From Byssothecium circinans (taxonomy: Eukaryota; Ascomycota; Dothideomycetes; Pleosporales; Massarinaceae), in NCBI GenBank assembly GCA_010015675.1, contig ML976983.1:453433-517432 (forward strand): 64,000 nucleotides of DNA. Reading direction: 5' to 3'. Made by a program: the position numbers and the translations under genes. Shown one piece after another: positions 34,857-37,573 of the stretch. Every line of letters starts with the position of its first letter. The stretch's first letter is position 1. The notes below the pieces were generated by a model that ran no database searches, was not told the DNA's origin, and saw only the letters and a program-made list of their open reading frames with translations.

Positions 34857-36602
34857 TGAAACCATACCGCAACACAAGACACCGAGACAGACGCCTACTC
34901 GCTCATCTCATGCTATAAACGGAGGCTTACTCAGGTAGTTCCGAAGCTTTGCGCAATGTGGCCAAGGGTTCGACAGCGTCTTCAACGGCGCCAGTTTTCT
35001 CCGCTATCTCTGCTTGCTGATGTAAAGCACCGGCAGTCGCATCAGATAACAAAAGATTACCTCCTTCACGCAAGACCATGTCAGGGTTCTGCCAGAAGTG
35101 TTCCGCTTTCGTCCGCATCCAAGGAATGGCGAGCACTATCAAGGTCACCACCATTCGCCGACTGCGAACATGGTGATGAGATATGCGACGGCATACTTCG
35201 GAAATACAGTAACAACTTTCTTCTTCAACCTATAAACACATGACAAGATTAGACTCAAGAACACTTAATCGTGTAGATGTATACGGTATTGAAGATACAT
35301 TTTGTTCATTGACAGGGGGTATTAATACTATATTATAACATGAGGGGACGATGAACACACATGTGCACTCCTTACAACAGAGAATAGCAACCTAGCTACG
35401 AGAATATAATATAGAATACCAGGTATATTAAAGTATCCACCAGAATATGAGATGCTAAGGTGTATCTCCTATTATCTTATTAATTGCGTACAAAATAGAC
35501 TAAGTAAAAGGATGGTTGTGTTGAGCATTCAGGTGGCCACTGTCGCGACTTCCTTACGAGTGTGATTAGACTGAACTAGCGCTCTAGCGGCATGAAAGAT
35601 GATACGAATTATACAGAACAAAATCGAATAGTTGACAGGGGGCGCCTTCACTACCTCGCTGAACTACAGACTGCACTTTTCATAGTTTTCGAGATCAAAT
35701 ATCGAGAGTATTTCTAGACTTTTATTCCCATTGCTGTACTTGTGTTCGTACATAAACACCTTTGTCATTAAATGGTCTTACTCTTGTGAGGCTTTGTGGA
35801 GGTCAAATGAGCTGGAGAAGTAGATTCATGTGATCGTATTGCTCTTCGTCTGAAGTTTGAAGAGAGCTGCGAGCTCTGGCTATATAGGCTTCTCAGGCTC
35901 GGAGGAGCTTGAGAGCGTATATCGTACGCGACAGGCTTTCATTTTGGCCCTGGTACATTGCACCTCGTCATTCTAAGAGTGAGCGAGCGGGCGAGCGATG
36001 GTGTGCTTGTTTTGTTGCTAAGAGTGTAACACTCAGTAGTATTAGTAGCGCGACATAAAATACGTTTATTGTTAAGTTACTGCGAGCTCCCTATAGTTGG
36101 ACGTGTTTAAGTAAGAAAGGTTAGAACTTATAGTGGATATTTATTTAATACTAACACTATGTAACTCATGTATGCTTTACTGTTTCCTCAGTGTACCGCG
36201 ACCATTCACCACACTGCTGGATCACTGGCTACGGAGCAGAATGTAAAGTAGCGCGAGTGGAAATAAGTACCTGCATACCCATACTCAAAATTTAAATCCT
36301 TAATTGAAGGCACCGCGTATTTCCAACTCCCTTCTCATTATAGGGAAGACTTGTTCGGGAACTAAGATCCCGGTTCCACAATATAGTGCATTGTTCGCTA
36401 CCGCTCCCAATCACTCCCTGGAAAAAGACGCCCAGCTCCCCACCTTTACCACACTGCCGCGCCTTACACGCACGACGCCGCATCACTTAATATTACCTTA
36501 ATACTCTCATAACTGGGCCTTTTTCTTAGTATATAACTGATTTAAGCTCAAAATTGTCCATTAAAATATGAGCACTGGCGCAATTTCAGCTTCAGCTTTA
36601 CA
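34857..36602. other. AT-rich intergenic stretch before the tRNA gene
   Basis: 1.7 kb of mostly AT-rich sequence without a gene. A 75-codon frame on the minus strand (35154-34927) begins with a hydrophobic run but has no recognisable domain. The part at 35260-36590 is rich in TA steps and could be decayed repeat DNA. Confidence 0.4.
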
Positions 36603-36609
36603 TCCTCCG

Positions 36610-36621
36610 TGGCGCAATTGG
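36610..36621 (+). promoter_or_regulatory. RNA polymerase III A box
   Basis: TGGCGCAATTGG at tRNA positions 8-19 matches the A-box consensus TRGYNNARNNG. Confidence 0.8.
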
Positions 36622-36640
36622 CTAGCGCGTCTGACTGTTA

Positions 36641-36647
36641 AGAAGCA
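36641..36647 (+). other. canonical 7-nt tRNA intron at position 37/38
   Basis: The seven bases AGAAGCA interrupt the anticodon loop directly 3' of A37. The G three bases from the intron end can pair with C32, the anticodon-intron pair that eukaryotic tRNA endonuclease needs. It is at the short end of known fungal tRNA introns. Confidence 0.75.
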
Positions 36648-36662
36648 ATCAGGAGGTTCGTG

Positions 36663-36714
36663 GTATGTAATTACACATCTTAATATTAAATTGTGTCGCT
36701 AACCCATCGGTTAG
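36663..36714 (+). other. 52-nt spliceosomal-type intron inside the tRNA T-stem
   Basis: The insertion begins GTATGT, contains GCTAAC 13 bases before its end and finishes GGTTAG. These are the donor, branch and acceptor signals used by mRNA introns in this window, and 52 nt is the normal local intron size. Removal joins TTCGTG to GTTCGAGCCC and restores a perfect T arm. The middle is AT-rich and can form a small ACACA/TGTGT hairpin. The last G of the insertion plus the following exon base recreate the GG of the B box. Confidence 0.65.
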
Positions 36715-36724
36715 GTTCGAGCCC
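36714..36724 (+). promoter_or_regulatory. RNA polymerase III B box spanning the intron-exon junction
   Basis: GGTTCGAGCCC matches the B-box consensus GGTTCRANYCC. Its first G is the last base of the 52-nt insertion, so the insertion did not destroy the internal promoter. It does increase the A-to-B box distance to about 92 bases between the facing edges of the two boxes. Confidence 0.75.
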
Positions 36725-36747
36725 ACGCGGGGGAGTTTATCCAATCC

Positions 36748-36753
36748 TTTTTT
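36748..36753 (+). terminator. RNA polymerase III terminator T6
   Basis: A run of six T residues begins 13 bases after the tRNA discriminator base, a normal Pol III stop. Confidence 0.7.
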
Positions 36754-37573
36754 GCTCCCCTATTCGGCCTTTCACAAGCTTAAGGTTTGCGGCGAAGGGT
36801 GAGAACGGCCCTTTATTTTACGTGGCACTGCTCTGCCGAGCTTTACTTTTGACCGTGCGCTGCAAGTGAGGGGCAGAAACATCACTCTTATGGTCATGGG
36901 TCCAGCATTTGGGATGGGTGCTGTGGCTTTGTGATGTGAGGGTGGTTTGGATGATTGTACTGGCGATTTGACGGATGTGCGACAATGGTACATTGCATCG
37001 ACAATGAATGGTAGGTCATCGACAAGGTCTATAACTATATCAATCATCACAACCCCTTTTGAATAATGATTTGGTCAGAGATGAGGGCCGCCGACAACGC
37101 GAGAGAAGAATCGCCATTACGCGACGTCCATACCACGAACAAAATTCCCTAAAAAACTGCAGTGCTTGCTACTCTCCATATCGATATAAAGAGCAGCTAT
37201 CTAGAATATTTATCAGGTGTTAAACTTGGCAAATAGCTATATGAAACGCAGATGAGAATTCAATCGAACTCTATGACCTGAAACTTTCAAAGCTTGTTCC
37301 GGAACCTATCATTAGATCTTATATATTCGTAGCGCAATAGGGGTATATCCGTTCAAAAGACAGTAAGTATACAGAAAAATACACAGAAAGGAAATGACCA
37401 TAATGGGGTGTCGATGTCATGGCCTGTGTCGGCATCCCTCTCAAGGACGCAATAAGCTCCTCAAGTGGGATCCAAACAGAAAAATCCCAGATAACGGCGA
37501 ACGCAGTAGGAAACAGTTGAGCCTCGCGGGCTCTTATCCCAAGCGTACTGCGCACAGCAAACAGTCCGGCTGC
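36754..37573. other. intergenic
   Basis: These are 820 bases between the tRNA and the 3' end of the receptor gene. A 92-codon frame on the minus strand (37050-36772) has no recognisable motif. No other feature is seen. Confidence 0.4.

Follow-up and report, generated by a model that had tools for sequence, protein, structure and literature searches.

The introns of nuclear tRNA genes are taught as a single kind, situated at position 37/38 and cut out by the SEN endonuclease. The nearest described cases of tRNA introns at other, ectopic sites are those of Cyanidioschyzon merolae and of the Guillardia theta nucleomorph; for these, and for archaea, the accessible text of two papers (PMC9602550; PMC3978253) describes introns in the D, anticodon and T arms, several to a gene, and documents all three arms interrupted in one tRNA of C. 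merolae. They are discussed there as bulge-helix-bulge introns, those of the nucleomorph often being without a defined motif, whereas the inserts that we describe below, which resemble them in their placement, carry mRNA-type signals and show that motif in none of 18 cases.

Precedents for spliceosomal introns outside mRNA genes are known, from U6 and from the rRNA genes of ascomycetes. The rRNA genes are transcribed by Pol I and are present in many copies, whereas here we are dealing with few-copy tRNA genes, among which no intact copy was found for Asn or Lys. The two cases are alike in that spliceosomal introns lie in structural RNA genes of related fungi, as given in the accessible text of PMC11889510 (citing Cubero 2000; Bhattacharya 2000). 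Similarly, the U6 snRNA gene of Schizosaccharomyces pombe, according to the accessible text of PMC10484740 (citing Tani and Ohshima 1989, 1991), has an mRNA-type intron, thought to stem from reverse splicing near the catalytic nucleotides; it is a spliceosomal-type intron in a short non-coding Pol III RNA, as are the tRNA inserts, but it concerns one gene in that yeast and 17 tRNA genes here. The present genome offers no local precedent, because U6 here has an uninterrupted full-length copy, which gives a 100-base match over model positions 1-105. This copy lies in G000:C14:277621-278945, together with two shorter U6-like matches within 1.4 kb.

The locus described here lies in a window, by which we mean the whole stretch of 64,000 nucleotides of Byssothecium circinans DNA that was analysed. 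It joins a kind of intron and a kind of gene that are each known, in a combination that is new as far as a search of the open-access literature reaches. An earlier reading made from the letters alone (the sequence-only reading) knew of no described nuclear tRNA gene of this kind, and we likewise found no description of spliceosomal introns in tRNA genes in the accessible text of the open-access literature, a scope on which we base no claim of priority. Two proteins encoded in the window have their best named relatives in Pyrenophora (65%), and in Alternaria (72%) and Paraphaeosphaeria (72%); the further named relatives are other Dothideomycetes and some lichen-associated ascomycetes. Most of the nearest named proteins are thus from Pleosporales, as befits an ascomycete close to that order.

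The tRNA-Asn(GTT) gene of the window

The sequence-only reading had placed in the window a nuclear tRNA-Asn gene interrupted in its T stem by a spliceosomal-type intron, and the letters and coordinates that it gave proved correct (Table 1). The insert runs GTATGT...CGCTAACCCATCGGTTAG and has TTAG as its final letters, and the GTATGT, branch motif and TAG reported between positions 52 and 53 were all found. When both introns are taken out, the acceptor (7/7), D (4/4), anticodon (5/5) and T (5/5) stems are fully paired, the T loop reads TTCGAGC and the discriminator is G, in agreement with the claim that removal of the insert gives a perfect T arm. Cloverleaf, GTT anticodon, discriminator, A and B boxes and T run are all present. 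The rest of the tRNA had been called canonical, and here the seven letters at the 37/38 site had been overlooked. It is this separate short intron that occupies the position of SEN-cut introns, whereas the insert, at 52/53, does not.

Table 1. Features of the interrupted tRNA-Asn(GTT) gene, in positions of the 64,000-nucleotide window.
Feature	Position	Strand	Basis
tRNA-Asn(GTT) gene, two introns, 133 nt, mature tRNA 74 nt	36603..36735	+	Cloverleaf with both introns out
tRNA exon 1 (positions 1-37, anticodon GTT)	36603..36640	+	Cloverleaf reading
A box TGGCGCAATTGG, uninterrupted	36610..36621	+	Read from letters
Canonical 37/38 intron, 7 nt, AGAAGCA	36641..36647	+	tRNA reading; 17-nt intron at the equal place in the C63 paralogue
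tRNA exon 2 (position 38 to 52)	36648..36662	+	Cloverleaf reading
U2-type spliceosomal-looking intron, 52 nt, between tRNA positions 52 and 53	36663..36714	+	GTATGT / CTAAC / TAG
Branch-point-like CTAAC, branch A 36702, 12 nt before intron end	36699..36703	+	Motif reading
B box GGTTCGAGCCC, whole in DNA	36714..36724	+	Read from letters
tRNA exon 3 (positions 53-73)	36715..36735	+	Cloverleaf reading
T6 run, likely Pol III terminator, 13 nt past gene	36748..36753	+	Read from letters

ARAGORN (bacterial setting) reported no gene at all in the window, and a search of 36400-36950 with Rfam gave no match. What the letters spell is exactly a nuclear tRNA-Asn gene with a spliceosomal-type intron in its T stem, which the spliceosome would remove; the earlier observation is confirmed as real, and it was understated.

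Interrupted tRNA genes in the genome

In the whole genome (48.4 Mb, 109 contigs) we catalogued 53 tRNA genes. Of these, 17 are interrupted at sites outside 37/38, and the other 36 have either no intron or one at 37/38 alone. The share is rough; one B-box pattern used in the search (37 matches) was chosen to favour 52/53 inserts. The 17 genes, which carry 18 off-site inserts, are two for Asn, three for Lys-CTT and one each for Lys-TTT, His, Thr-TGT, Thr-AGT, Thr-CGT, Arg-CCG, Arg-CCT, Arg-ACG, Arg-TCT, Pro-CGG, Ser-GCT and Val-CAC. Inserts in the acceptor stem lie at 3/4 (Pro, Thr-CGT) and 4/5 (Arg-ACG), and in three interrupted genes only 3-4 nt of tRNA precede the intron; those in the D arm lie at 17/18 (Arg-CCT), 18/19 (Arg-CCG, Thr-AGT, Arg-TCT) and 21/22 (Val). 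One insert is found at 26/27 (Arg-TCT) and one in the variable arm (Ser), while the T stem is interrupted at 50/51 (Thr-TGT) and 52/53 (both Asn genes, two Lys genes and His) and the T loop at 57/58 (Lys-CTT, Lys-TTT). The Arg-TCT gene (L184, G000:C18:86804-87034, minus strand) has a GC-AG insert in the D loop, a GT-AG insert at 26/27 and a 19-nt intron at 37/38.

The genes were gathered from a genome search with RF00005, in which 63 of 1497 candidates were scored, 44 were listed at E up to 0.001 and all 44 were read, and from three B-box patterns giving 37, 100 and 50 matches, the letters of every new match being read. Genes longer than the stretch examined, or with a different B box, would be missed by the pattern route. 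The RF00005 listing supplied 28 of the 36 genes without an off-site insert, and other loci supplied eight (L195 cut one base early). For the long-arm loci L022, L023 and L028, where automatic placement of the anticodon was wrong, the gene names are readings by eye; L014 is a Cys gene by eye and by ARAGORN, and the automatic call of a 37/38 intron in it is probably wrong. Loci L031, L040, L041, L044, L045, L047, L048, L049, L052, L077, L095, L124 and L156 were left out, by eye, as repeat-like or ambiguous. The catalogue contains no Met, Phe, Tyr or Trp gene and is therefore incomplete, so that further genes, interrupted or not, remain. Eight tRNA sequences, concatenated as one query, gave no match, and neither did one pattern scan of viral contigs.

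Three further sets of loci deserve mention. L040, L041, L045, L047, L052, L077 and L156 make up one family, whose members are tRNA-like, resemble one another (GGTGGGATGGCTCAGTAGTAGAGTGCTGCAGCC...) and probably represent a repeat derived from a tRNA. L095 (G000:C4:183841-184061) and L124 (G000:C18:252101-252321) are similar tRNA-like loci with complete acceptor stems and an ambiguous anticodon arm. Finally, at L114/L164 (C13:281819, minus strand; G000:C13:281790-282250) a T-arm-like stretch comes after an intron-like end, TACTAAC...CAG; this is perhaps an interrupted tRNA gene, but no acceptor partner was found and it was excluded from the counts.

Standard searches recover few of the interrupted genes. 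ARAGORN, in its bacterial setting, reported one of the 17, Thr-AGT, with its start misplaced, compared with 12 of 17 control loci without off-site inserts (17 of the 36 were given to it). With the Rfam tRNA model (63 of 1497 candidates scored) and a threshold of E up to 0.001, seven of the interrupted genes were listed, five of them as such (Lys C4, His, Thr-TGT, Ser and Thr-CGT) and two in part (Arg-ACG and Arg-CCT); four more appeared at E up to 10.

Promoter boxes, T runs and the probable polymerase

Spliceosomal splicing is generally coupled to Pol II, and this speaks for a reading in which Pol II, too, transcribes the interrupted loci, giving long non-coding RNAs, and the tRNA stems from the spliced Pol II transcript. 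The way in which the inserts lie with respect to the Pol III promoter argues against it. In the window gene the B box GGTTCGAGCCC is whole in the DNA because the last G of the intron replaces G52, and the same substitution, leaving the B box whole, is seen for all five inserts at 52/53. At 18/19 (three inserts) it is the first G of the intron that keeps the A box whole, as in TGGCTAAGTGG. The two inserts at 57/58 (Lys-TTT, L157, G000:C2:1118760-1118980; Lys-CTT, L158, G000:C24:209200-209430) do split the B box, but each contains a GTTCGAATC of its own, which is likely to be a replacement B box for Pol III; a similar stretch occurs in one of the other 16 inserts (Thr-TGT). These two introns do not count as independent cases, because they are possibly of common descent (37 of 55 aligned positions equal, just above the shuffle maximum).

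The 3' flanks also point to Pol III. In 13 of the 17 genes a run of at least four T starts no more than 16 nt after the gene; among the remaining four, the run begins at +41 in His and at +35 in Thr-TGT, and Lys-TTT and Thr-AGT have none in the short stretch examined. Promoter boxes that are kept or supplied, together with close T runs, fit transcription of the interrupted genes by Pol III. That a Pol III transcript can undergo such splicing is indicated by the fission yeast U6, whose mRNA-type intron is spliced according to the accessible text of PMC10484740. On these grounds we regard a Pol II origin of the tRNA as very unlikely.

Intron signals and the endonuclease alternative

The inserts are of one kind. 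Their lengths fall between 48 and 64 nt, their 5' sites read G[T/C]NNG[T/C] and their 3' ends YAG in 18 of 18, and 16 are GT-AG and two GC-AG. In 17 of the 18 a CTRAY is present whose A lies 9-12 nt from the 3' end of the insert. Several of the inserts were picked out by eye with the motifs in mind. The exception, Arg-ACG on C12, has only a CTAAA five nt before the end, a weak branch site. By comparison, among the 2,173,620 possible stretches of 48-64 nt on the two strands of the window, 38 combine all three motifs (1.7e-5), against 17 of 18 inserts, for which sliding of the junctions with the mature tRNA unchanged allows up to five placements per insert (13 of the 18 examined).

The same signals are seen in the mRNA introns of an EamA-type transporter gene in the window, namely GTAGGT..GCTAAT..CAG (49 nt), GTAAGT..ACTAAC..TAG (157 nt) and GTACGT..GCTGAT..TAG (48 nt). 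These three introns, a small sample from one gene, were picked by eye; the protein encoded by the joined exons aligns to one from Alternaria (76% over 342 aa), which supports the choice. Two of the three are of a size similar to that of the inserts, and the likeness in size to local mRNA introns claimed in the sequence-only reading holds to that extent.

With inserts and 37/38 introns removed, acceptor stem (7/7) and T stem (5/5) are complete in all 17 genes. The anticodon stem has all five pairs in 15 genes and one mispair (4/5) in each of the other two, His and Val; D stems are 4/4 in 11 genes and 3/4 in six. Canonical 37/38 introns are present in many of the interrupted genes, including that of the window, and several genes thus carry both an off-site insert and a 37/38 intron. 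The two are distinct kinds, since none of the 30 stretches at 37/38 starts with GT or GC and ends with AG (one of them, a single base in the repeat-like L031, is spurious).

The tRNA-splicing endonuclease might nevertheless remove inserts at unusual sites, as it does the ectopic bulge-helix-bulge introns of C. merolae and archaea. A relaxed bulge-helix-bulge (4-bp central helix, short bulges) was found in none of the 18 inserts, compared with nine of 28 testable 37/38 introns. Taken alone this difference is weak, supportive rather than decisive, because shuffled inserts, with a mean of 1.6 in 18, also give zero in 16% of trials; nor is lack of the motif an absolute objection, since many ectopic introns of the G. 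theta nucleomorph are without a defined motif in the accessible text of PMC3978253. The motif result carries the argument: the endonuclease model leaves unexplained why GT/GC...CTRAY...YAG recurs in 17 of 18 inserts. Removal of the inserts by the endonuclease appears to us still less probable than a Pol II source. The class of intron is clear from the letters, the inserts being of one kind, U2-type spliceosomal.

Paralogous genes, intact copies and the history of the introns

The sequence-only reading had also raised the option that a freshly inserted intron had killed one copy of the gene, and had proposed looking for the insert in other tRNA-Asn copies and counting the uninterrupted tRNA-Asn(GTT) genes. 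A search of the genome with the window locus gave one more tRNA-Asn gene, at C63:95118-95263 (L002). It is interrupted at the identical site by a 53-nt insert, GTACGT...GACTAAC...TTAG, and has a 17-nt intron at 37/38. Its mature tRNA equals that of the window gene in 74 of 74 letters, whereas the two inserts agree at 36 of 53 aligned positions, which is as high as shuffles reach (maximum 0.68, with a mean of 0.57). The flanks of 60 nt are no more similar than shuffles. Identity of the 74-nt tRNAs while inserts and flanks have drifted indicates that the tRNA-Asn is held by selection. No uninterrupted tRNA-Asn gene was found in the whole assembly with an exact anticodon-arm pattern, a 5'-half pattern allowing up to three mismatches, or BLAST of the joined tRNA; a third match of the anticodon-arm pattern lies, judging from its surroundings, within a protein-coding gene. 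All four Lys genes found carry inserts, uninterrupted ones having been sought through the catalogue searches only.

Other families include both filled and empty sites. The filled Thr-AGT gene on C63 and the empty one on C4 agree in 71 of 72 mature letters, the sole difference being the discriminator, and the filled Arg-ACG gene on C12 and the empty one on C11 agree in 72 of 72. The Lys-CTT genes on C4 and C11 share their site, the first 12 intron letters and 38 of 52 aligned intron positions. This likeness and the filled and empty pairs suggest that some introns are probably older than the duplication of their gene and that some loci have gained or lost theirs. In the interrupted Thr-AGT gene (L152, G000:C63:61631-61851) the discriminator is C, compared with A in the intact paralogue, and this gene may be drifting or dead.

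A general reading of this last sort, in which the interrupted copies are pseudogenes left by recent intron insertion and intact genes elsewhere do the work, draws on the uninterrupted copies that exist for His, Thr-AGT and Arg-ACG, and on the fact that assembly or catalogue may miss genes, as is evident from the absence of Met, Phe, Tyr and Trp with 63 of 1497 candidates scored. It is, however, hard to reconcile with acceptor and T stems that are complete in 17 of 17 genes, with diverged paralogues that keep identical tRNAs, and with Asn and Lys, for which no uninterrupted gene was found and four of four genes found are interrupted, respectively. We judge it the least probable of the alternatives considered so far. 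A killed copy is likewise the least likely of the three options of the sequence-only reading, since both tRNA-Asn genes are interrupted at one site with identical tRNA letters and differing inserts, 37/38 introns and flanks, no uninterrupted tRNA-Asn was found, and 15 further genes have like inserts.

Group I and group II introns, which are far longer than 48-64 nt, were rejected on length, and an assembly error was rejected because two tRNA-Asn loci on different contigs and 15 further genes are interrupted.

A proposed route from gene to tRNA

Very probably the nuclear tRNA-Asn gene of the window works and its insert, like the others among the at least 18 counted in 17 tRNA genes, is a spliceosomal intron of the U2 type that the spliceosome removes from a Pol III pre-tRNA. 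Transcription, splicing, the order of steps and the use of the tRNA are what we infer from the DNA. Pol III would transcribe the gene by way of its intact A and B boxes up to the T run; GTATGT, CTAAC and TAG would then be recognised by the major spliceosome, which would link position 52 of the pre-tRNA to position 53, upon which the T arm could fold and RNase P, RNase Z and CCA addition would follow. In a separate reaction the tRNA-splicing endonuclease and ligase would take out the 7-nt intron at 37/38. Where an intron lies in the acceptor stem, spliceosomal splicing would have to precede maturation of the 5' end, because the stem exists only once it has been joined.

We think it likely, with somewhat less assurance, that the supply of entire families of tRNA, those for Asn and Lys together with several isoacceptors for Arg, Thr, Pro, Ser and Val, depends on the spliceosome, that two unrelated splicing systems serve these genes, and that an intron splitting the B box brings a box of its own. 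A need for the spliceosome in supplying the tRNAs for Asn and Lys is as strong a reading as the data allow.

Because interrupted genes of this kind are easily missed by ARAGORN and Rfam, more fungi may have the trait than has been recognised. A second kind of intron in nuclear tRNA genes would make the spliceosome act on short, uncapped, structured Pol III transcripts. The genome would also provide many test cases: for the spread of introns into new genes, in its paired empty and filled sites and its diverged introns at one site, for the need of the spliceosome for Pol II, and for the survival of a Pol III promoter after insertion. The cell probably needs its mRNA splicing machinery for part of its tRNA and, if this is true, protein synthesis would be coupled to the activity of the spliceosome through tRNA.
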